Of a stretch of 35,290 bases of DNA, positions 15,062-28,992 are shown piece after piece. This DNA is from a virus. The notes below the pieces were generated by a model, which saw only the letters and a program-made list of their open reading frames with translations, was not told the DNA's origin and made no database searches. The first letter of the stretch is position 1; every line of letters begins with the position of its first letter. The stretch lies in the IMG/VR virus record IMGVR_UViG_3300048597_000138, positions 1-35,290 of that record; one strand, 5' to 3'. The position numbers and the translations under genes are program-made.

Positions 15062-15943
15062 CTACGCGGCGAGGATCTGTTTGCGAACCATCGCCAGTGT
15101 TTCCTGCAGAGTCGAAACGCGGTCGATGATCTTGTTTTCAATGGCCTGAGAGCCGAGCCACCAACGGCCATCACTGACGGCTGCGAACTCTTCGTCGTTC
15201 ATCTCGCGGCCATTCATCACGGACTCGCGGAAGTACGCGAAGTGAGCGTCAACGTTCTCCTGGAGGAATGCCTCCTGCAGCTCAGTCACGGGATCGCCCA
15301 CGATGCCGACGCCTTTGATTGGTCCGGTTCGTTTCACGATCGTGCGAACACCTTCGGCCTCGAAGTACTTCGAGTAGTCGTAGAGAGCTGTCACCGTGCC
15401 GATATTGCCGAGCTGATCTGTTGGTCCGCTGCAGATGGTTCCGCAGCGAGTGGCAAGGTAGTACCCAGCCGAATAGCATCCGCCGTCGTTTTGGGCGATC
15501 GTCAGCTTTTCGTTGCTGAGCAGGTCCAGGGCCTTCGCACATTCGTGCAAACCACTGACAGTTCCACCAGGTGTGTTGAACCGAATCACAGTGGCTTTGA
15601 TGTCCATGCTGTAGCGACATTTGTCGAACGCCGCCGTCAGCAATGGATAATTTGCGGTCCACGGATTGACGAGATTCACCAGTGGGCCGATGACGCTGAC
15701 GATGCCGATGCCGCCTTCGACGATGTCGAGTGGCAACATGTCCAAATCGAACCACTTCGCATAATCGCTGGTAATGTTCCTCCACATGCTGTCTCTGTGG
15801 AGACCACCAGCGGCGTCAGGTGTCAATGTTCCGGCGTTCGCATCGGCGATCCGGGCAATCACAGCGCGGGCGTCCTGATGGCAATCCGGACGGATCGACC
15901 ACAGCAGCGAATCGTGCCAGGCGTAGTGAGGTTGTCGTTTCAC
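15062..15943 (-). CDS. Prohead protease, S49 (SppA/ClpP-like) family
   Basis: This 293-residue serine protease probably processes the scaffold or portal during head maturation. Visible family features are FNTPGGTV at about 122-129 (oxyanion region), the nucleophile context GGCYSAGYYLA with Ser158, the strand LGNIGTVTALYDYSKYF, and the late WLGSQAIENKIIDRV typical of S49 proteases. It overlaps the end of the portal gene by four bases, matching the lambda B/C order. The N-terminal domain (about 80 residues) is unusually distinct and could interact with the portal. Confidence 0.88.
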   Translation of the reverse strand: MKRQPHYAWHDSLLWSIRPDCHQDARAVIARIADANAGTLTPDAAGGLHRDSMWRNITSDYAKWFDLDMLPLDIVEGGIGIVSVIGPLVNLVNPWTANYPLLTAAFDKCRYSMDIKATVIRFNTPGGTVSGLHECAKALDLLSNEKLTIAQNDGGCYSAGYYLATRCGTICSGPTDQLGNIGTVTALYDYSKYFEAEGVRTIVKRTGPIKGVGIVGDPVTELQEAFLQENVDAHFAYFRESVMNGREMNDEEFAAVSDGRWWLGSQAIENKIIDRVSTLQETLAMVRKQILAA

Positions 15944-17481
15944 GCTGCACCCGCTTTCGTTGGCTTCGTCGGTGTGGTTGTCGTGTTCGTTGGAGCTGGT
16001 TTCGCCAGCATGTCTTCCAGTGTCACGTCCAGCCGGGCCGTGTTGATTCGCATGCGGAATCCGAGCTGCTCCGCCTTTGTCAGTTCGTGACGTAAGTTCT
16101 GCAGGTTCTCTTCGAAAAGTCCGCTGCCGGTTTCATCGCACAGGCCTTGCATCGTCGTCAGGCCAGCAGCAACGCGGCCGAGGCCTGCGGAGAGCTGCTC
16201 AGTCGGTTTCCAGAACGGAACGCCGCGCGGAACCCACTTGTAGGTGAGATCCTCGATCGTCATGCTGCGAGGCAGCACGATTTCGCCGGTACCACTCAGG
16301 TCCGTCGGCAGAATCCATCGCCACTGACGCCAGCGAGTCATCCGCTTGTGGAGTCGGAGCTGCGACTGTCGACGGCGATGGCAACTGCGTTCGAATAACG
16401 TCCACGCGGCCTGAGAGCCAAAGAAGTTGGTCTCAGACGGGTTGTAGAAATTCGCTGGCAGATCCAGAGCCAACATGACAAGCTGAATGCACAGCCTCAT
16501 GAACTCGATCGTGTTGCTGCCGGGGCTGTTTGCCTGCAGAATCTCAACCTTCTCACCGACGGTCCGGTCCATGATGACCGGAGCCCCTTTTCCAAAGTCG
16601 TAGTATTCTTCGGCCTCGGTGTCTGGATCATCATCCTCATCGGCACCGTTTTCATTCACTGCGTCCGCAATGTCTTCGTCATCATCCGGATTGCGGAAGA
16701 TGGCGATTCCAAACAATTGCTCGAGCTTGATCTTGGCCCGGGCGAGATCCATCGTTTCGTACAGGTCCCGCATCTCGTTCAGAGCAGCACTGATCGACGA
16801 CAGCCCTCGCACCAGGTTGGCCCGCTGTTCGTACTGGATATGCTGCCACACCTTGCTGGCAGGGACCTGACGATCTGTGAATCGGTTCGAATACGGCGTC
16901 GCCAGGTCGAACTCTCGAAAGTTCCACGCCGTGACTCTGTTTCGACCGTTCAGCTTTGCACCGCTTAACCATGTGCCGCTGGACATATCGCGAGGATTGC
17001 GACAGTAACTGCCTTCGATCAGCTGCAGAGTTCCCTCCTGCAATGGCACGAAAAAGCAGTCGCCGGCGACGATCTTCAGGCCTTCACCGACGCTTCGCAT
17101 GTCGTCCCAGCTCATCCTTCCGACGTAGTCGTTGTTTTCCGGCTCGCAGTCGCGAGTCATCAGAAAACGCAGATCTTTGTTCAGACCTTCGTCCTTCGTC
17201 GTAGGGTGGAAGTCGAACAGAGTGCAGTAGTTGATCGTCTGACGAATCATCCACTGCAGCAGCGAAAAGTTGCGATGAACGTCCTGAGCGTTGGCGTCCA
17301 TCAGATCGCGTCTGCTGGAATTCATCAGCAGATCTTCAGGCTTGATCGTCGACGTGGACGCCGTTCGGCGACGTCCCTTCGGGTTCAACGCGTCGTAGAC
17401 GTCGTCACCATAGGTGGCCGTCGTGCTGCCGGATGGCATCGCCGTGAACGTGGCCGTCTGCCACGGAGCTGGAGCACTCAT
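15940..17481 (-). CDS. Portal protein (lambda gpB-like)
   Basis: This 513-residue protein should form the dodecameric portal through which DNA enters the head. It has the lambda-type portal pattern: an N-terminal stem with NSSRRDLMDANAQDVHRN, the wing segment ending VPASKVWQHIQYEQRANLVRG, an acidic insert (DDDEDIADAVNENGADEDDD) and NFFGSQAAWTLFERSC typical of the crown region. It starts at ATG 17481, overlapping the stop of the gpW gene, and overlaps the protease gene. The acidic insert is longer than I would expect for the family. Confidence 0.88.
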   Translation of the reverse strand: MSAPAPWQTATFTAMPSGSTTATYGDDVYDALNPKGRRRTASTSTIKPEDLLMNSSRRDLMDANAQDVHRNFSLLQWMIRQTINYCTLFDFHPTTKDEGLNKDLRFLMTRDCEPENNDYVGRMSWDDMRSVGEGLKIVAGDCFFVPLQEGTLQLIEGSYCRNPRDMSSGTWLSGAKLNGRNRVTAWNFREFDLATPYSNRFTDRQVPASKVWQHIQYEQRANLVRGLSSISAALNEMRDLYETMDLARAKIKLEQLFGIAIFRNPDDDEDIADAVNENGADEDDDPDTEAEEYYDFGKGAPVIMDRTVGEKVEILQANSPGSNTIEFMRLCIQLVMLALDLPANFYNPSETNFFGSQAAWTLFERSCHRRRQSQLRLHKRMTRWRQWRWILPTDLSGTGEIVLPRSMTIEDLTYKWVPRGVPFWKPTEQLSAGLGRVAAGLTTMQGLCDETGSGLFEENLQNLRHELTKAEQLGFRMRINTARLDVTLEDMLAKPAPTNTTTTPTKPTKAGAA

Positions 17482-17687
17482 TAGCGGTGCCCCATAAAGA
17501 CGGCTCGGTTGCGTTTGCGAGCTGGCAGAATCCCCAGATCACGCTTCAGTCGGGTCATTTCGGCCCGGATTTCTGCAGGGGTGCCGAAGTTGGTCGTAAC
17601 ACCATCGACGGTCGTGGACCGGATGCCACTGCTCAGAATTTCTTCGAGCTGCTCCAGCCGGGCCTGTTTTTGCTCAGTCGTCGCCAT
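17481..17687 (-). CDS. gpW-like head-tail connector
   Basis: This 68-residue protein has the gpW size and pattern: an N-terminal helix (QKQARLEQLEEILSSGIRST), a short hairpin (VDGVTTNFG) and a second helix (PAEIRAEMTRLKRDLG). gpW joins the head to the tail connector and stabilises packaged DNA. It lies directly upstream of the portal gene. The upstream side carries a 20-base repeat also found at 26311-26330. Confidence 0.85.
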   Translation of the reverse strand: MATTEQKQARLEQLEEILSSGIRSTTVDGVTTNFGTPAEIRAEMTRLKRDLGILPARKRNRAVFMGHR

Positions 17688-17738: not shown

Positions 17739-17797
17739 GGAAATGCAGAGTTTGCATTTCCCGCGCAACGGCGAGCGGCTGGGCGTCAGCCCTCCGT
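17739..17797. repeat. Two hairpins upstream of the gpW gene
   Basis: GGAAATGCA and TGCATTTCC pair around a five-base loop (17739-17761). Just after, ACGG...GGCTG...CAGCC...CCGT (17768-17797) forms a nested stem. They occupy the gap between the leftward gpW operon and the rightward island and look like intergenic genome elements. They could act as a 5'-leader structure for the connector operon or as a boundary element. Confidence 0.55.
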
Positions 17798-17840
17798 GTC
17801 GAGCGTTTTGAAAAATCTCGAAACTTTCTGAATCAACCTC

Positions 17841-17876
17841 TTGCAAGTGATATCACTTGCCGATAATATACCTGCA
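17841..17876 (+). promoter_or_regulatory. Promoter of the rightward island with palindromic operator
   Basis: TTGCAA (17841-17846) and TAATAT (17864-17869), 17 bases apart, form a plausible -35/-10 pair. A perfect 18-bp palindrome GCAAGTGATATCACTTGC (17843-17860) fills the spacer and overlaps the -35, so a protein bound there would occlude polymerase. The ribbon-helix-helix protein encoded at 18898 is the natural candidate regulator. The start of transcription would be near 17876, leaving a leader of about 60 bases. Confidence 0.6.
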
Positions 17877-17898
17877 CACGAGACGCAAAGTGCGACTC

Positions 17899-17939
17899 AG
17901 GATTGAAACCGGCGAAAGCCACAAACGAGGATTGAAACC
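17899..17939 (+). repeat. AGGATTGAAACC leader repeats
   Basis: AGGATTGAAACC occurs at 17899-17910 and 17928-17939, the latter directly before the first start codon of the island, and AGGATTGAAACA at 18219-18230 directly before the second. The AGGA part can act as Shine-Dalgarno; the downstream TTGAAAC is conserved too, which suggests extra function or duplication of the leader. Confidence 0.65.
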
Positions 17940-18161
17940 ATGAGCATGTTCACAACACAGCCAATTGAAGCATCAGAAATGCCAGCAGCACTGGCCGCAA
18001 TCGATCGCATCACAGCACGAGCAATTGCACGAGCATCTAAGCCAGGTGCTGACGTTGGAAAGGAAATGCAAGCTTTGGCTCGTCTGATCACAGAAAGACT
18101 CACCGTAACGGTGCGAACTAGCGAAAATGTTCCATTTGCGGACCCTTCTGGATTGAACTGA
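17940..18161 (+). CDS. Small unknown protein, first gene of rightward island
   Basis: This 73-residue protein is the first of four genes facing against the late operon. It starts at ATG 17940, immediately after AGGATTGAAACC. It is mostly helical (AALAAIDRITARAIARASKP, GKEMQALARLITERLTVTVR) with no cysteine or membrane segment. It is followed by an intrinsic terminator, so it is probably the most abundant product of the promoter. No family is recognised; small size and context are compatible with a counter-defence or regulatory protein. Confidence 0.6.
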   Translation: MSMFTTQPIEASEMPAALAAIDRITARAIARASKPGADVGKEMQALARLITERLTVTVRTSENVPFADPSGLN

Positions 18162-18173
18162 AGCACTGCACCA

Positions 18174-18205
18174 GCCCGGTCTCACAGTGAGGCCGGGCAT
18201 CTTTT
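18174..18205 (+). terminator. Intrinsic terminator within the rightward island
   Basis: GCCCGGTCTCAC and GTGAGGCCGGGC pair around a very small loop (one T-G wobble), followed by ATCTTTT. The stem is GC-rich and sits 12 bases after the first island gene, so only part of the transcripts should reach the three genes downstream. Confidence 0.7.
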
Positions 18206-18230
18206 AAGACCATTTGGCAGGATTGAAACA

Positions 18231-18575
18231 ATGCAAATTTCAGACGCGGTGTACGAGGATTACTGGAACTCTCCCGGTCCAATCGCTCTTTCTAAAAAAC
18301 ACAGCTGGGGAGCGATGGAGCAGCAGGCCATTCGCGAGTTCTCAGAAGAGCTGGAGGCGGCATTGGAATTAGACCGTCGGCCTGACGGCCCGCGAGCGAA
18401 GCGACTAAAGATAAAACTGGCTACGCTGCTTCAGTGCGATTTCGCCCGGGTCCAGCGAGAGGATTCAATCATCGATCGGCAGGGATTTGGAACCGTCGTG
18501 CTGACTCAAAACAGCTATCGCGATGGAATTTTCTGCGCAATGTCGCTTTTAGCATTAGGACGCGTTCCATGCTGA
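18231..18575 (+). CDS. Unknown 114-residue protein, second island gene
   Basis: This protein starts at ATG 18231 directly after an AGGATTGAAACA leader. It begins with MQISDAVYEDYWNSPGPIAL, then has an acidic helix (QQAIREFSEELEAALELD), a basic stretch (GPRAKRLKIKLATLLQC) and a hydrophobic C-terminus. Its stop overlaps the next start (ATGCTGA), so translation of the DUF1874-like gene is coupled to it. No domain is recognised. The coupling suggests a partner function. Confidence 0.6.
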   Translation: MQISDAVYEDYWNSPGPIALSKKHSWGAMEQQAIREFSEELEAALELDRRPDGPRAKRLKIKLATLLQCDFARVQREDSIIDRQGFGTVVLTQNSYRDGIFCAMSLLALGRVPC

Positions 18576-18967
18576 TCGTCTGCACTCTCCCTCCGACACT
18601 GTTTCCCGGAACGTATCGAGTCGCTCAGATTGATCAGCAGACCGCCGCGCGATTTTTGCGCGAGGCGGCGGAAGATGACTCTTTATGCTGCTGCGTGCAT
18701 TTTGGATCGACTGCGAAAGTGCTTCGGAAAATCAGCGGGCTTTCGGAGCGTTTCATTTTCTACGAACAGCGTCCGATGGTGCCACCGCCTCAGGATGGTG
18801 ATTCGTTTCTTTTGGTGCGTCTCGCGACAGGCGTCAGTGCTCGCGATCATCGCGACATGGGACCGAACGACTTCGCTTTTTTTTTTGGGGGAGTACGATG
18901 CCAAAACCAAATGACAGCCCAGTCACTCGTCAGCCGATCGGCCTCTCTGATCTCGCGTGGAAGCTGA
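18569..18967 (+). CDS. DUF1874/STIV-B116-like protein, possible viral ring nuclease
   Basis: I start this gene at ATG 18569, overlapping the stop of the previous gene, giving about 132 residues. The pattern matches the B116/DUF1874 family: GTYRVAQI near the N-terminus, a conserved histidine block (CVHFGSTAKVLRKISG, His44), QRPMVPPPQDGDSFLLVRL with Arg84, and a C-terminal MGPNDFAFFFG strand. Members such as AcrIII-1 cleave the cyclic tetra-adenylate signal of type III CRISPR using a histidine in an equivalent GHxST block. Here the block has one extra residue and the usual Glu after the Arg is not obvious. Activity is therefore uncertain. The last residues run into the next gene across a T10 tract. 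Confidence 0.5.
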   Translation: MLIVCTLPPTLFPGTYRVAQIDQQTAARFLREAAEDDSLCCCVHFGSTAKVLRKISGLSERFIFYEQRPMVPPPQDGDSFLLVRLATGVSARDHRDMGPNDFAFFFGGVRCQNQMTAQSLVSRSASLISRGS

Positions 18968-19146
18968 TCGACGACGCGCTGAAGCTTAACGGCTGCAGCT
19001 CGCGAGGTGAGTATCTGGAGTGGCTTGTGCTCTCTCAGAAGTTCCCGCAAGATGAGGCCGAGGCCCTGTGGAAACTCCGCCGAAAACGCGGTGGTATTGG
19101 TGGTGTGTCGCCTGACCAAAGTAGCCATCTCGCTCCGTCGAGATGA
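18898..19146 (+). CDS. Ribbon-helix-helix DNA-binding protein (probable)
   Basis: This 82-residue protein has the MetJ/Arc pattern: a short strand (VTRQPIGLSD) followed by two helices (LAWKLIDDALKLNG and SSRGEYLEWLVLSQ). RHH dimers bind palindromic operators, and the only perfect palindrome nearby lies in the promoter of this island, so autorepression is a natural inference. A strong GGGGGAG ribosome-binding site precedes ATG 18898. The last codons and the stop are inside a REP-like inverted repeat. The gene overlaps the end of the DUF1874-like gene. Confidence 0.6.
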   Translation: MPKPNDSPVTRQPIGLSDLAWKLIDDALKLNGCSSRGEYLEWLVLSQKFPQDEAEALWKLRRKRGGIGGVSPDQSSHLAPSR

Positions 19147-19235
19147 GCCTTACTGTTCGCCGGTCGAATCGAAAACGCCGCTCCTTTCGAACGCGTGCAC
19201 CCTGCAAGGCTCATCTCGCGGAGCGAGATGGCTAC
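19121..19235. repeat. Paired inverted REP/MITE-like element between convergent genes
   Basis: The left arm (19121-19151) begins GTAGCCATCTCGCTCCG. The right arm (19206-19235) is its near-perfect reverse complement; one T is missing. The arms are about 55 bases apart, and each arm is itself a hairpin (ATCTCG...CGAGAT). The left arm supplies the last codons and stop of the RHH gene and the right arm contains the stop of the zinc-ribbon gene. It may act as a bidirectional terminator. Confidence 0.85.
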
Positions 19236-19489
19236 TCCGCCGCCTTGTATTCGCGGTACAGAAACGCGTTGTCACACTCGGCACAGTTCGCCGTGAAATG
19301 CTTGTACGATCCGACGGCCACGCCCTTGATCGTCGCCGTGGCATTTCCCTCGCGGAGCAGGCGTTTGTTCTTTGGTGGTTTGTCGCAGCCGCACTTCGGG
19401 CACTTGTCGATGACGATTACCCCTGTCACGACGTCTCGCTTTTTGGTGACAGCTCCTGCAGGACGGCCGGTCGATTTCTTGTCGCTCAT
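19232..19489 (-). CDS. Small zinc-ribbon protein next to the terminase
   Basis: This 85-residue protein contains CPKCGC (about residues 30-35) and CAEC (about 69-72), a classic two-knuckle zinc ribbon, with a basic N-terminus (MSDKKSTGRPAGAVTKKRD). Its ATG overlaps the end of the terminase gene, so the two are co-translated. It could bind DNA at packaging or help the terminase. It is too dissimilar to known small terminases to call one. Its stop lies in a REP-like repeat. Confidence 0.7.
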   Translation of the reverse strand: MSDKKSTGRPAGAVTKKRDVVTGVIVIDKCPKCGCDKPPKNKRLLREGNATATIKGVAVGSYKHFTANCAECDNAFLYREYKAAE

Positions 19490-21894
19490 ATCGCCACTCT
19501 GATCTTTCTGCGCTTTCGCTTTTTGGATTCCACTCGCGTTGAACCGCTCAACATCATGCTCGCCGGAAGTCGGCAGCCCAGTACTGACCCGAGAACATCA
19601 TTTCCGACTCCGACGTCCCATAGATGGTTATCGGTATTTGGTTTGAGATGCCACCATTCACTACGAACGCCCGTCGTCTCATTGAAGTTCATTTGCGAAT
19701 ACTCTGCGACGTGATGATCCGCAATCATCCGATGGTCATAGCCTGCGAACCATGTGAGAGCCCCGGGAGCGGCACGATCCATCATCAGACGGTTTCGATG
19801 ATGGCTTTTCCAGTAGTCGGTGTCATAGTTAATGAAACGCATTGTTCCGGTAGCTGGTTTGCGTCGTCGCCAGTTTTCGCCACAGACGTCGCCGTCCTTG
19901 ATTGGCATATCGTTTAACGGCACCCTGCCTCGTGACGATCTGGAGTGAATCGGCCAGAGTTTTCCCGTCAATCCGGCCTTACGAATGCCATCTAGAATTG
20001 TTTCCTTTTCGTCATTTGCATCGATCCCAGCAATATTCAAGCGCAGGACACTCCCGTCCTCCCGTTGAAAATGCGTCTCGAACAGACCGTTGAACAAATC
20101 GCGAATCGCTGCCATGACTCGCACAGCATGTGTCGGCAGATGGGCATACATCTTGTCGATCGTGTGTTGAGCGGTGGCTTGAGTGAAGTACGCTTTCCCC
20201 TGAGCTGGCCAGGTGCCGTAATCAATCGTCCACGATGTAGAGTCCTGCTTCCACGCTCGAACCTCGTACCACAGCACAGGCTTTGAATAGTCGGCATGCG
20301 CTGTGATGAACTCGGCATCTTCTGGGGCCATGTGGGCCTCCAGATGATGTGTCCGCGTTGCGAGCACATGGGCCAGCAACTGAGGCAGCTTGGCGACTTC
20401 GAATTTGTCGGGTTGATTCTGCAGCTCCGACCAAAAACCCTGTCGGCTGCGGAAGTACCAGTGCATGGCCTTTTCGAGCGCGTCAACGTAGTGCTCTGGC
20501 TTGTAGGCCCATTTCCATGTGACCACACAACCGGCGTTCATCGCCTTGTGATGTTTGCGGTAGAACGCGTGAGCCCGCTCGGAAATTGCTTCCTGTTCTA
20601 TTTGTTTTTCACCACTGTCGAAGCCCTGCAGATCTTCGACGCGAATCCGATTCCATTCTTCCCACAGATCAATCGCGTTGTCGTTTGGAAGTGACTCCAA
20701 AAATGACGCTCGAATGCCTCTCCAGTCAGGATTCCGTATTCTGTCGAGAAGTTCGTCAGCAGCGTCTCCTGGCTCAATCACCGTGCAAGTCAACAAGCAA
20801 CTGAACGACTTGTCTCCGCCAGCAAGTCCCTGAATGTCGTCCTTTACGATTTTCAGCCGCTTTTGACATTCCTTGCGCGAGGCCGCTGATGCCCGAGTCT
20901 GAAAGTCATCGATTAGGCCGAGCGTCGGTCTCTCGATGACATCACCGCGTTTTTTACGACGGCCTCGAATCTTGCTTCCTGTGATTCCGCCGGCGTAGAT
21001 GACGGCGCCAGGTTTTCCGTTGATGTCGCCTAAATGCAATTCAAGCTTGTCAGCTTTAACCTTGGTCGCCACTCCGCCAGACGTCTGGCCCTTGCCACGC
21101 TGATTGATTCCCTCGAGCGCCGCGATTGGGAGGCATATCTCCGGGAAGTCCGCCTGCAGCAGCTCGTTTGCTTCGAGTTCGTCTCTTAGGTCTTGAATCA
21201 GATCCATTGCCGCCGCATCGCTGGCAGCAATCAACATAACCATCGTGTGATGACGGTAGGCAACAGCCCACAAGATTGCACGAACGCTGATGAACGTCTT
21301 ACCCCAGCCGCGAGGAATCCCCATGGCAAGTAATGCACATCCAACGAGTACGATCAATTGAATTGTCTCGATCAGCTTCACGTGAACGCTGCTCCAAGGA
21401 TGCCGGGTGTCTTCTGGAAAATATGTGCGAAGAAACAGATCAAAATCCCGCTCACACTTCGCCCGGCGTTGTGGATTTAACGGGGCGGGAATAGGCCCAA
21501 TTTCGCGTTTGTCTTCGCTCTGCAGACGCTGGCGATTGTTCGCACGGACCTTGTGGTCCTCGTAGTTCCCGTCGAAGGGCAGATGGCCATGATCCTCGGC
21601 TGGTTCCGAAGAAGCGGGTTTCGAACGGGATTTCGCGGGGGATGCCGAGTCGATCGCAGAACTCTCTGAGGATGCGGGCACTGACTTCGACAAACGTTTC
21701 TTGCCGCTTTGCTTCGCAGCTGATGACTCCGCTTTCGGAGTCTCCGCCGGCGTTTTTGTCGACTTCTTCTTTGCGGCCTTCTTCGCCGGTTTCTTGCTCG
21801 GCGTTTTCGCTGGCGACCGCTTCACAGCACTCGGCGAACGAGTCACCGGCTTCGAAGATTTGGCGGGCTGTTTTTTGGGTGGTTTGGTTGGCAT
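19486..21894 (-). CDS. Terminase large subunit with histone H1-like N-terminal tail
   Basis: This 802-residue ATPase-nuclease packages DNA. The Walker A motif is GIPRGWGKT (residues 192-200), Walker B LGLIDDFQ (about 325-332). The nuclease half contains the acidic stretches IAGIDANDEKET near residue 625 and WDVGVGNDVLG near residue 775. The first 100 or so residues are a Lys/Ala/Pro/Ser-rich tail (KTPSKKPAKKAAKKKSTKTP) resembling histone H1 tails, much longer than usual for the family. It may bind DNA nonspecifically. No clear small terminase is adjacent. The gene order terminase, gpW, portal, S49 protease matches lambda, with an island inserted after the zinc-ribbon gene. Confidence 0.88.
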   Translation of the reverse strand: MPTKPPKKQPAKSSKPVTRSPSAVKRSPAKTPSKKPAKKAAKKKSTKTPAETPKAESSAAKQSGKKRLSKSVPASSESSAIDSASPAKSRSKPASSEPAEDHGHLPFDGNYEDHKVRANNRQRLQSEDKREIGPIPAPLNPQRRAKCERDFDLFLRTYFPEDTRHPWSSVHVKLIETIQLIVLVGCALLAMGIPRGWGKTFISVRAILWAVAYRHHTMVMLIAASDAAAMDLIQDLRDELEANELLQADFPEICLPIAALEGINQRGKGQTSGGVATKVKADKLELHLGDINGKPGAVIYAGGITGSKIRGRRKKRGDVIERPTLGLIDDFQTRASAASRKECQKRLKIVKDDIQGLAGGDKSFSCLLTCTVIEPGDAADELLDRIRNPDWRGIRASFLESLPNDNAIDLWEEWNRIRVEDLQGFDSGEKQIEQEAISERAHAFYRKHHKAMNAGCVVTWKWAYKPEHYVDALEKAMHWYFRSRQGFWSELQNQPDKFEVAKLPQLLAHVLATRTHHLEAHMAPEDAEFITAHADYSKPVLWYEVRAWKQDSTSWTIDYGTWPAQGKAYFTQATAQHTIDKMYAHLPTHAVRVMAAIRDLFNGLFETHFQREDGSVLRLNIAGIDANDEKETILDGIRKAGLTGKLWPIHSRSSRGRVPLNDMPIKDGDVCGENWRRRKPATGTMRFINYDTDYWKSHHRNRLMMDRAAPGALTWFAGYDHRMIADHHVAEYSQMNFNETTGVRSEWWHLKPNTDNHLWDVGVGNDVLGSVLGCRLPASMMLSGSTRVESKKRKRRKIRVAI

Positions 21895-22506: not shown

Positions 22507-23970
22507 CTACCGAAGGTGAACCGTCAAATCCGGTGCCCCGGTTAAAAGCATCGTCACGGTGGATAGGTCCGACGTGTACGAAACTCCGTCCAGGGCACAT
22601 GAGTATTGAATCAGCCATTTGTTCAGCGTGACTTTGACGGGCGGGCTGATCTGCAGGCCGTTGTTCGCGACGTTGAACGTCCGCGATGGTCCAGTCCAAT
22701 CGAGCGTGATGCCGGCCGTGTCGAACTGAATCTTCTGAGCGGTCAGCAGCTTCGAGGCCATCGTTCGCCACGTATCAGGTGCGTCGATGGTGATGTCGAA
22801 CAGACTGCCGTACGCGATTGGTTCGTCAGCTGACTGCTGACCGCTCGTTTCTGCAAGATGAGCCGCCAGAGTGGCCGCGAACGTCTCCGGAGTCGGAGTC
22901 GCGTCCCGGACGCTGGCCACGGCCTCGACCTGCTGTCGGTCGACGTCGGCAAGGAACCGACGAATCGTGTCGACGGTCACAGCTCCGACTTCGGAGCCTT
23001 GTCCGATCGCCTGAATCCCTGCGACCTTTTTGTCTGGCGTCAGCAACGGTGAACCTGACATACCGAACTGAGGCGACGAAATACCGAGGCCGTCATAAGC
23101 ATCGAGCGCGATTCCAGCAGACTTTCCACCGGCACGTCGATTGCGGATCTGCAGGCGTTTTGGAGTGTCACCGTGAAGGTATCCGGGGATCTCGATCGCG
23201 TTCGCCGGCAATTCACAAATGTCGTACGTCCGGACTGTCACAGATTCCGGCAGCCGGTACCGGAGAACGGATAGATCTGCAGCCTTGTCGACCTTCACCA
23301 GCTCGGCCGAGATGCGAGCGTAATCGGTTGAGCCAAACGATGACGGGAAGTCTGCATAAAAGCCGTCAGATTGATCGTGATGGCCAACGGTCAGAATCAG
23401 ACCATCACCGATCGCGACACCGGACCATCGGCAGTCGTTCGCGATCAGCCTGCAGGCGCCGTCGCCAGTAAACGGTCGCAGTATTTGTTCGGCCGTGTGG
23501 TAGCCTCGAAACTTTCGAATCGGCATGCCGGCAGCATCACAGAGCCAGACCTGCGGAGCGACGTCGACATTCGGATGCGGCTCACGATCAACGTCGACGA
23601 TTCTGACGCGATATCCTGCTGCCTCCAGTGATTCCTTCACCCCTTCATCGTCCATGCGTTTACAAGGGCCACAGAAGGCCTTCGTGTACATTACAAAGTA
23701 CGCCTCTTCAACGTCCGATTTCACGGACCGCTGAAACTCGATCGACGGTTCTCGCTTCGAGATCGGATCTGGTACCGGATCCAGTGACTCCGGAATCGGA
23801 GTCCCTGGCAGCCGTTCCTTTTCGGCTTCGATCAGTCGCAGTCTGGCTCTCGCCTCCTGAATGTCGTCGCATCGGCCTTCCGAGGAACAGAGGCACAACG
23901 CCAAAAAGGTGGCGATGGTCAGAGCGATGATGAGTTCGAAAGCGTTGACGCGTTTCATGACGGTCCCCAT
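22507..23970 (-). CDS. Secreted thioredoxin-like / trypsin-like fusion protein
   Basis: This protein of about 485 residues has an N-terminal signal or anchor (FELIIALTIATFLALCLC), then a thioredoxin-like domain with the redox motif CGPC (100-103), then a trypsin-like serine protease domain: His197 (LTVGHHDQ), Asp232 (KAADLSVLRY) and Ser307 (GMSGSPLL), and a C-terminal beta-rich domain of about 100 residues. The start may be ATG 23970 or 23958 (MKRVNAFEL). It follows the cysteine protease gene without a gap. It is presumably exported and acts on envelope proteins, but substrate and redox partner are unknown. Fusion of these two domains on a phage is unusual. Confidence 0.85.
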   Translation of the reverse strand: MGTVMKRVNAFELIIALTIATFLALCLCSSEGRCDDIQEARARLRLIEAEKERLPGTPIPESLDPVPDPISKREPSIEFQRSVKSDVEEAYFVMYTKAFCGPCKRMDDEGVKESLEAAGYRVRIVDVDREPHPNVDVAPQVWLCDAAGMPIRKFRGYHTAEQILRPFTGDGACRLIANDCRWSGVAIGDGLILTVGHHDQSDGFYADFPSSFGSTDYARISAELVKVDKAADLSVLRYRLPESVTVRTYDICELPANAIEIPGYLHGDTPKRLQIRNRRAGGKSAGIALDAYDGLGISSPQFGMSGSPLLTPDKKVAGIQAIGQGSEVGAVTVDTIRRFLADVDRQQVEAVASVRDATPTPETFAATLAAHLAETSGQQSADEPIAYGSLFDITIDAPDTWRTMASKLLTAQKIQFDTAGITLDWTGPSRTFNVANNGLQISPPVKVTLNKWLIQYSCALDGVSYTSDLSTVTMLLTGAPDLTVHLR

Positions 23971-27202: not shown

Positions 27203-28072
27203 CTAATCCCGTCGACCGACCCCAAAATGCGAGTCGACGGCCGTCAGCAACGCGTTGCGCTCGAGTTCCGGGAGTCTGCTGAGTTTCTCGATCATGTTCT
27301 GCTCCCGACGAAGCAGTTTGAATCGCTCGCGACGATCCCGGCCCAGATAGCGATAGTCCTGCAGCTCCGTCGGTTCGGGATAATTGCACCAGACATGTTC
27401 GGTGGCCATTCCACCGCGTGTGCTGGATGGAAAATCGAAATGCCGCCAACTGGCCAACTTCGTCGTGTATAGCTTCGAAGAATAGCCACTGATCATGATT
27501 CGGCACGGGAGCTCGTTCACGATCGCCAACAGTCTGACGTGGTCATCATGAGACAACTCATGACGGTACCGTGACTCCGATTTGCGAGTCGAGTGGAGAT
27601 AGGGCGGATCCAGATAAATGAACGCTCGCTGCAGACCGTGGTTTTCATCGTCGATCCGCACTTCGCGGGAGAGATCTTCCAGCAGTTCCAAGCCGCATTG
27701 GTTCTTGACAAGAATTCTCCGCTCTTGTTCTGTCTCCATGTTGAAGAAGTACTTTGCCTCCTGAATTGGAGTCGCCGCCTCGAGGTAACGACGCCACCAG
27801 CGGAACACACTGGCATCCAGATCATTCAGCATGACTCGTTGCGGTAACTGCATGTGTCTCACGATCGCACAATGCCCAGCAAACGGGATGATCAGCCTGT
27901 TGTGGGGCGGGATCTGGTTGATCAGATGTCTGAAGCATCCGCCTTTGCCACCGAAGTAACTCTCCTGCAGCATCTCCGAATCCGGAGTCGTGCGATCGCA
28001 TGTGGTTGTCTCTCCGGGAACTGTCTCCACTTTGCGAGTCGCTCGAGCCGATTTGTAACGCGAAACTGCCAT
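27203..28072 (-). CDS. DNA adenine N6-methyltransferase (D12 class)
   Basis: I choose ATG 28072 (MAVSRYKSARATRKVE), giving 289 residues, over an in-frame start at 28129, since AAAGG precedes it. It has motif I-type glycine-rich FGGKGG (about 40-45), IPFAGHCAI (about 62-70), motif IV DPPY (155-158) and a C-terminal region with a probable target-recognition segment. D12-class enzymes of this pattern often methylate adenine in short palindromic sites such as GATC. No restriction partner is visible, so it is an orphan, probably protective or regulatory. The exact site is unknown. Confidence 0.88.
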   Translation of the reverse strand: MAVSRYKSARATRKVETVPGETTTCDRTTPDSEMLQESYFGGKGGCFRHLINQIPPHNRLIIPFAGHCAIVRHMQLPQRVMLNDLDASVFRWWRRYLEAATPIQEAKYFFNMETEQERRILVKNQCGLELLEDLSREVRIDDENHGLQRAFIYLDPPYLHSTRKSESRYRHELSHDDHVRLLAIVNELPCRIMISGYSSKLYTTKLASWRHFDFPSSTRGGMATEHVWCNYPEPTELQDYRYLGRDRRERFKLLRREQNMIEKLSRLPELERNALLTAVDSHFGVGRRD

Positions 28073-28176
28073 TTTTGGGCCTTTGAAACTGGCTCTAATG
28101 AGCCGCAAGTTGAGTCTGGAGCGTACCAACGGCCATCAAAACGAAATCTCCGACGGCCGTTTTTGTCATCGATGGC

Positions 28177-28992
28177 TCACGGTTCGTGATAGCCGTCCAC
28201 GTCGACCCATGGTTTCGGAACTGAGCTGAGCTGCTTGCGCTTCCGACATGATGCAGTCGCCGTGAGTTGCTTCCCTGACACCGATCGCCCGCATCCGCAG
28301 AGACAATCAGATTCGCGGGGCCCAGCACGGTCCGCGACGGCCGCAGCGAGTGCACGGCCCATCCGGAGAGGCACACCATTCGCCACCGCCTTCACTTTTG
28401 CTGATTTCGACCAGCCTTTGAGCTTGATCGGCTGGTCCAGATCCTGACGACGGCAGACGTCGGTGTAATCTTTCCAACGTTCAGTCTTCGTCGTGACTGC
28501 TTTTGCTGGTCTGCCTTTTTTCCGATTTCGCGTGCAGTCGTTCACACGAATCGGGCGGATCATGTCACCGTGTCTTGAGCCGAACTGAATGTGACGCGAT
28601 CGTAGTTGCACACCGCCGCATTCGCGATGTGTGATCGGGATTCGCTGGACGGTGTAGCCAGCGATTCGCACGTCAGGGACCAAGGGAACGTTCTCGATCA
28701 AAAACCACTCAGGCCGGCACTCCACGATAATCCTGCAAGTGTGCTGCAGCATTTCGCGACTGTGCTGGACGCTGTCATGATCTGCTTTCTTGCGTTTACT
28801 GTTGGCCTGCGAGAACCCCTGACACGGCGGGCCCGCCACAATTCCGTCGATCCGATCCGGGATACCGTGAAACTCACGGACGTCGCCGCCAGTGATCTTG
28901 TCCGCCGCCTGAACGATGCAAAAGCCGTTCGCAGCGAATGCACGGTCAAGAAGTCCGATGCCAGGGAACAACGATAGAACGAGCTCAGTCAC
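28177..28992 (-). CDS. DNA cytosine-5 methyltransferase
   Basis: This 271-residue enzyme has motif I LSLFPGIGLLDRAF, motif IV GPPCQGF with catalytic Cys57, motif VI ENVPLV (100-105), motif VIII QLRSRHIQFG (about 129-138) and a C-terminal helix RMGRALAAAVA. The target-recognition region is short. The last 50 residues contain CLCGCG and a later Cys, resembling a small zinc knuckle. It precedes the adenine methyltransferase, and no endonuclease gene is adjacent, so it is an orphan methylase that may protect the phage from host restriction. Confidence 0.92.
   Translation of the reverse strand: MTELVLSLFPGIGLLDRAFAANGFCIVQAADKITGGDVREFHGIPDRIDGIVAGPPCQGFSQANSKRKKADHDSVQHSREMLQHTCRIIVECRPEWFLIENVPLVPDVRIAGYTVQRIPITHRECGGVQLRSRHIQFGSRHGDMIRPIRVNDCTRNRKKGRPAKAVTTKTERWKDYTDVCRRQDLDQPIKLKGWSKSAKVKAVANGVPLRMGRALAAAVADRAGPRESDCLCGCGRSVSGKQLTATASCRKRKQLSSVPKPWVDVDGYHEP

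Follow-up and report, generated by a model that had tools for sequence, protein, structure and literature searches.

We found that the virus record IMGVR_UViG_3300048597_000138 carries what we read as a moron-type, self-regulated accessory cassette, inserted in the genome of a tailed phage of a probable PVC host; we assign this reading a probability of about 0.6. The window is the entire stretch analysed, positions 1 to 35,290 of that 35,290-base record. Almost all long ORFs in the window run leftward and include the genes for the terminase, a Zn-ribbon-like protein, the head–tail adaptor and the portal, as well as those for an S49 head protease, the major head protein, the tape measure and the tail fibre. 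The cassette consists of four small rightward ORFs (17940–19146) located between the Zn-ribbon and adaptor genes, and the opposed orientation of four small genes to the late operon that had been described in the original prediction was thereby confirmed. The genes concerned are the following.

15940–17481, leftward: portal, lambda-type
17481–17687, leftward: head–tail adaptor
17940–18161, + strand: gene 1, 73 aa
18231–18575, + strand: gene 2, 114 aa
18569–18967, + strand: gene 3, 132 aa in the frame as given; weak resemblance to DUF1874
18898–19146, + strand: gene 4, 82 aa, putative ribbon-helix-helix repressor
19232–19489, leftward: Zn-ribbon gene
19486–21894, leftward: terminase, GpA-type nuclease domain

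Elsewhere in the window, the ORF at 22507–23970, upstream of the terminase, showed a thioredoxin-like and a trypsin-like protease stretch, both below Pfam cut-offs, and two adjacent DNA methyltransferases, of N6-adenine (D12) and C5-cytosine type, were seen at 27203–28992.

Terminase-based searches yielded five relative contigs, with terminases 66% identical in 3300042691_012580 and 42–45% identical in 3300035698_014752, 3300048833_000277, 3300048834_000678 and 3300048836_000645. Since the last three look alike, the five contigs amount to approximately three lineages. In four of the five the portal is preceded by an adaptor homologue, and in 3300035698_014752 by a 70-aa ORF in the adaptor place; in every case these genes lie no more than about 1 kb from the terminase. 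Because the terminase, adaptor and portal lie close together in all five relatives and leave no room between them, the cassette is an insertion in the present genome. The proposed insertion between the packaging and connector genes was thus upheld, the same junction occurring without the cassette in five contigs. The gene set was not shared by these relatives, as none of genes 1–4 had a match in the five contigs.

The codon-position pattern of genes 1–4 was coding-like, with GC2 lowest in genes 2–4. When ORFs were scored with a codon-usage reference drawn from the long genes of the window itself, and with the 95th percentile of wrong-frame windows as the threshold, genes 1, 2 and 4 scored above it and gene 3 just below (−0.056 versus −0.019); antisense ORFs overlapping the cassette scored at or below the wrong-frame level. 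The four cassette ORFs are probably real genes.

The region upstream of the cassette and its first intergenic gap contain the following signals.

17739–17761: hairpin GGAAATGCA-GAGTT-TGCATTTCC with perfect 9-bp arms, a possible second operator
17841–17867, + strand: candidate promoter TTGCAA-15-GATAAT, a weak reading made by eye
17843–17860: perfect 18-nt palindrome GCAAGTGATATCACTTGC, a likely repressor operator
17899–17938, + strand: tandem leader, copies 1 and 2 of AGGATTGAAAC around a small hairpin
18174–18198, + strand: terminator-like hairpin between genes 1 and 2, an 11-pair stem followed by ATCTTTT
18219–18229, + strand: copy 3 of AGGATTGAAAC, in the ribosome-binding region of gene 2

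The perfect palindrome, the repeated leaders and the internal terminator of the original prediction were all recovered. The palindrome lies in the 252-nt intergenic region upstream of the cassette genes and is the longest perfect one of the window; such a palindrome is expected 0.17 times per 35 kb and 0.0012 times in the intergenic region itself, and no further copy was found in viral contigs. It overlaps the −35/spacer portion of the candidate promoter. The claim that the island has its own promoter proved marginal, as TTGCAA and GATAAT at a 15-nt spacing can be picked out by eye but the sigma-70 scan called no promoter at its threshold in the cassette upstream region. The sequence AGGATTGAAAC occurs exactly three times in the window, each time in a cassette leader. 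Copies 1 and 2 flank the small hairpin GGC-GAAA-GCC, copy 2 forms the ribosome-binding region of gene 1, and copies 2 and 3 directly precede the ATGs of genes 1 and 2. Because AGGA stands 8 nt before these ATGs, copies 2 and 3 are sufficiently explained as ribosome-binding sites, which have possibly been duplicated. The terminator-like element after gene 1 is a strong hairpin with a T-run.

The last gene of the cassette, VTRQPIGLSDLAWKLIDDALKLNGCSSRGEYLEWLVLS, has a strand-helix-helix look. An AlphaFold2 model of medium confidence (mean pLDDT 74) placed helices at residues 18–30 and 36–48, preceded by RQPIGLS; in ribbon-helix-helix proteins the strand pairs only in the dimer. No sequence match for gene 4 was obtained in Pfam, NCBIfam or the PDB, nor a match to any ribbon-helix-helix family profile, and the fold search gave no significant match (best E 2.1), although its non-significant list is headed by a MazEF-mt1 chain (6kyt) and has the AtaR antitoxin (6gto) in eighth place. 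The ribbon-helix-helix gene proposed for the island end is thus compatible with the model but was given no backing by the databases. We regard it as likely that gene 4 encodes a small DNA-binding autorepressor.

Both borders of the cassette are marked by dispersed repeats.

17769–17800, + strand: 32-bp dispersed repeat CGGCGAGCGGCTGGGCGTCAGCCCTCCGTGTC, at the left border
19120–19236: 117-bp REPIN of two GTAG-tagged REPs arranged head-to-head, forming a 31-bp hairpin

The anatomy given in the original prediction was largely correct, but the REPIN at the 3′ end of gene 4 had been overlooked. Its arms (19120–19151 and 19206–19236) form a near-perfect inverted repeat with outward tails and 54 nt between them. 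The element is built of the unit GTAGCCATCTCGCTCC...GAGATGAGCC, a GTAG-tagged REP composed of a GTAG tail and a palindromic body. As RNA the element folds with −72.6 kcal/mol (z −9.4). The REPIN sequence supplies the last eight codons and the stop of gene 4 and also the stop of the convergent Zn-ribbon gene. A scan for the exact 28-mer of the REP in a collection with one genome per species (84,980 species) detected it in 62 stretches, all from entries titled as Planctomycetota or Verrucomicrobiota members. An inverted partner was present in the preceding 130 nt for 22 of 63 host REP copies, mostly 54–65 nt away, and the 17-mer core of the REP occurred in 3–35 copies in each of six of these PVC genomes. 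The 17-mer was not found in four relative phage records. GTAG repeats often occur as head-to-head dimers, PVC bacteria included (PMC3733652), and the present element shows the features of a REPIN, namely the GTAG tail, an imperfect palindrome, many copies in bacterial genomes and an inverted pair with outward tails. A host-type REPIN within a phage genome points to a Planctomycetota or Verrucomicrobiota (PVC) host, and the virus is probably a phage of planctomycete- or PVC-type bacteria. The sequence GGATTGAAACNATG, looked for as a general leader, had 0–1 copies in each of six REP-bearing genomes.

A copy of the left-border repeat that agrees with it at all 32 bp stands at an unrelated place in the sister phage IMGVR_UViG_3300048833_000277, and a further copy (29/30) lies inside the terminase gene of that phage (copies of 30–32 bp at L139 1497–1528 and L135 7187–7216). 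No match to the repeat was obtained in 199 Planctomycetota genomes, even with 3 mismatches tolerated. Around positions 1500–1600 of L139 the sister phage also bears, beside the shared repeat, a second REPIN-like GTAG doublet, GTAGGCCGATCTG...CAGATCGGGCTAC; a search of 199 genomes with one of its arms likewise gave no match. Short dispersed palindromic repeats thus accumulate in these phages, and they may either have carried the cassette in or have inserted next to it.

As an accessory cassette with its own rightward transcription between the Zn-ribbon and adaptor genes, the four genes would be controlled by gene 4, acting as an autorepressor at the promoter-overlapping palindrome. The hairpin after gene 1 would attenuate read-through and so leave gene 1 in excess of genes 2–4, and the REPIN, a strong hairpin between converging transcripts, may serve as a transcription barrier. 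Genes 1–3 would likely function in host takeover or counter-defence, as is the case with many such small cassettes; a counter-defence role of the cassette is possible.

Searches for relatives of the four proteins gave nothing useful for genes 1–4 in Pfam, PHROGs, NCBIfam and PADLOC or for genes 2–4 in the PDB. A match of gene 2 to PrdD (E 0.0023, 17 bits against a cut-off of 320) was discarded as chance. Relatives of genes 2 and 3 were not found in viral contigs, nor those of gene 3 in phages and plasmids. In 392 Planctomycetota genomes gene 3 had 31 weak matches, the best 20 of which were aligned and appeared to be fragments of other proteins, or frames, hit by chance. Genes 1, 2 and 4 had a single weak match, with an internal stop, in 343 Planctomycetota genomes, and none was found for genes 2–4 in 338 Verrucomicrobiota genomes. 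As the searches recovered no relative for any of the four, selection on these proteins is not in evidence.

The original prediction had seen in gene 3 a resemblance to the DUF1874 family and, from it, a possible AcrIII-1 ring nuclease. The profile search on which this could be judged returned no match to PF08960 (curated cut-off 26 bits), either with the window record or with the protein at E values up to 10; gene 3 lies below every curated threshold. Against a profile that we built from 15 DUF1874 members, encoded by archaeal viruses, phages and a planctomycete, gene 3 scored 10.3 bits versus 7.8 for the best of 2000 shuffles; hhalign gave a probability of 55% over 77 columns, with 1 of 200 shuffles close (49%). 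Among 4,594 ORF tiles from the loci analysed, nine scored as high as or above gene 3, and those scoring above it came only from loci themselves fetched by weak PF08960 matches. The claimed resemblance to DUF1874 is thus weakly visible with the purpose-built profile but escapes Pfam, and we regard it as suggestive but post hoc. A planctomycete protein (L088, G104:C12) has a clear C-terminal DUF1874 domain (77 bits) and a long N-terminal part that is CRISPR-associated in look, resembling a Crn2 fusion.

Gene 3 agrees with conserved DUF1874 columns at Ala26, Thr48, Ala49, Arg84 and Gly88. At the Gly-His that is invariant in 15/15 members it has His44-Phe45, and in the invariant R-x-x-E-G motif Arg84 and Gly88 fit with a 4-residue gap and Glu is replaced by Thr87. 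The middle Arg column falls on Pro69, with Arg68 adjacent, and has no clear counterpart; the N-terminal Asn corresponds to Ile or Thr. Of the two residues named in the original prediction, Arg84 does align with the family Arg given this gap, but His44 stands at the invariant Gly column. A distant, non-catalytic relative of DUF1874, in which the fold is kept, catalysis is lost and a cyclic nucleotide or nucleic acid is bound, is possible and would unite the profile resemblance with the lost His and Glu positions, but gene 3 is a single sequence without homologues and its single-sequence AlphaFold2 model (pLDDT 37) is uninformative on the fold; we consider this alternative unlikely.

Another explanation is that the DNA here arrived together with host repeats and that the cassette ORFs in it are open by chance. 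The missing homologues, the position of gene 3 under the 95% coding threshold and the dispersed repeats at both borders would agree with it, but a one-strand codon-position signature, two RBS-like leaders, overlapping gene junctions, a palindrome and a terminator speak against it, and we consider this explanation quite improbable.

A true DUF1874 ring nuclease (AcrIII-1) in gene 3, with gene 4 as its Aca and the whole as an anti-type III CRISPR locus, appears very unlikely. The weak collinear resemblance to the profile and the agreement at Thr48, Ala49, Arg84 and Gly88 speak for it, but the nine equally high-scoring tiles from loci selected by weak PF08960 matches, the lack of a Pfam, NCBIfam or PDB match, the absent Gly-His and Glu and the uncertain middle Arg weigh against it, the active-site His being required in the Csx1-Crn2 protein tested (PMC7293037). 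Because key active-site residues are missing, the ring-nuclease assignment is unsupported, and from its sequence gene 3 cannot be filed as AcrIII-1. Among 28,114 phage genomes, 36 carried AcrIII-1/Crn2 (PMC12409355); in SIRV2, AcrIII-1 under its native promoter has been reported not to work as an Acr (PMC11065993).

We also considered the leader repeats ending in GGATTGAAAC as CRISPR-repeat mimics, i.e. RNA anti-CRISPRs made of solitary repeat units. The ending GGATTGAAAC is a frequent 3′ end of CRISPR repeats, and a weak match to CRISPR-DR10 lies in the tandem leader, downstream of the promoter region. The placement counts in favour too, as Racrs are found downstream of promoters and can adjoin acr genes (PMC10651486). 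The CRISPR-DR10 match reached 18 bits against a gathering score of 39 (E 0.83), the leader copies have only about 10 nt in common and two of them are already accounted for as ribosome-binding sites, so that such mimicry is hardly probable; all other Rfam matches in the region were far under gathering scores.

At the junction of the third and last genes a feature missed in the original prediction was seen.

18877–18886, + strand: T10 run in gene 3, followed by GGGGG (T10G5 to 18891)

In the frame as given after T10G5, gene 3 continues to 18967 (132 aa); of the other two frames, one would stop after 114 aa and the other would read through into gene 4 in frame. The run may mark a slippage site or stem from misassembly. 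That gene 3 is a far-diverged second-messenger sponge of DUF1874 fold, with His and Glu lost, made by the cassette together with the repressor and fused to gene 4 by slippage at the T10 run so as to join messenger and DNA binding, is highly improbable.

With the ring-nuclease claim failing on both residues and profile, an acr–aca locus becomes a guess from layout alone. Of the proposed acr–aca-like arrangement, the insertion and a likely self-regulation stand, but the ring nuclease does not, and no cassette protein had a meaningful match to a known acr or aca homologue in PHROGs, NCBIfam, PADLOC or Pfam. The cassette is probably a self-regulated accessory cassette because it is inserted, has its own palindrome and ends in a small gene that is possibly DNA-binding. 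New counter-defence genes come to light in small orphan cassettes that oppose the surrounding genes of phage late regions, and the phages of PVC bacteria are little explored; here a defined insert, present in this genome and absent in about three relative lineages, provides named proteins for testing. The bacterial-type REPIN inside a phage genome offers both a hint of a PVC host and a possible route of cargo into phages. If gene 3 were indeed a non-catalytic DUF1874 protein, the ring-nuclease family would be extended to sponges.

Compared with DUF1874 proteins (PF08960: STIV B116, AcrIII-1, Crn2), gene 3 is similar in length and shows a weak collinear resemblance with the RLxxG and TA motifs, but the GH and E that are invariant in the family are lost and the middle R is uncertain. 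The order of the small genes, with that of a putative small DNA-binding protein last, and the palindrome in the promoter region are reminiscent of acr–aca loci, but none of the known Acr or Aca proteins is matched by a cassette protein; the archaeal-virus protein Aca8 is predicted to be wHTH, not ribbon-helix-helix (PMC11065993). The right-border element shares the GTAG tail, palindromic body, head-to-head dimer and many PVC genome copies with the GTAG REPs and REPINs of PVC bacteria and differs in residing in a phage genome, between converging genes to which it gives both stop codons. Unlike phage moron or accessory cassettes, the present one encodes four proteins all without detected relatives and has dispersed palindromic repeats at its borders; in common with them it is a small inserted set directed against the late operon, absent from relatives and equipped with its own regulatory signals.
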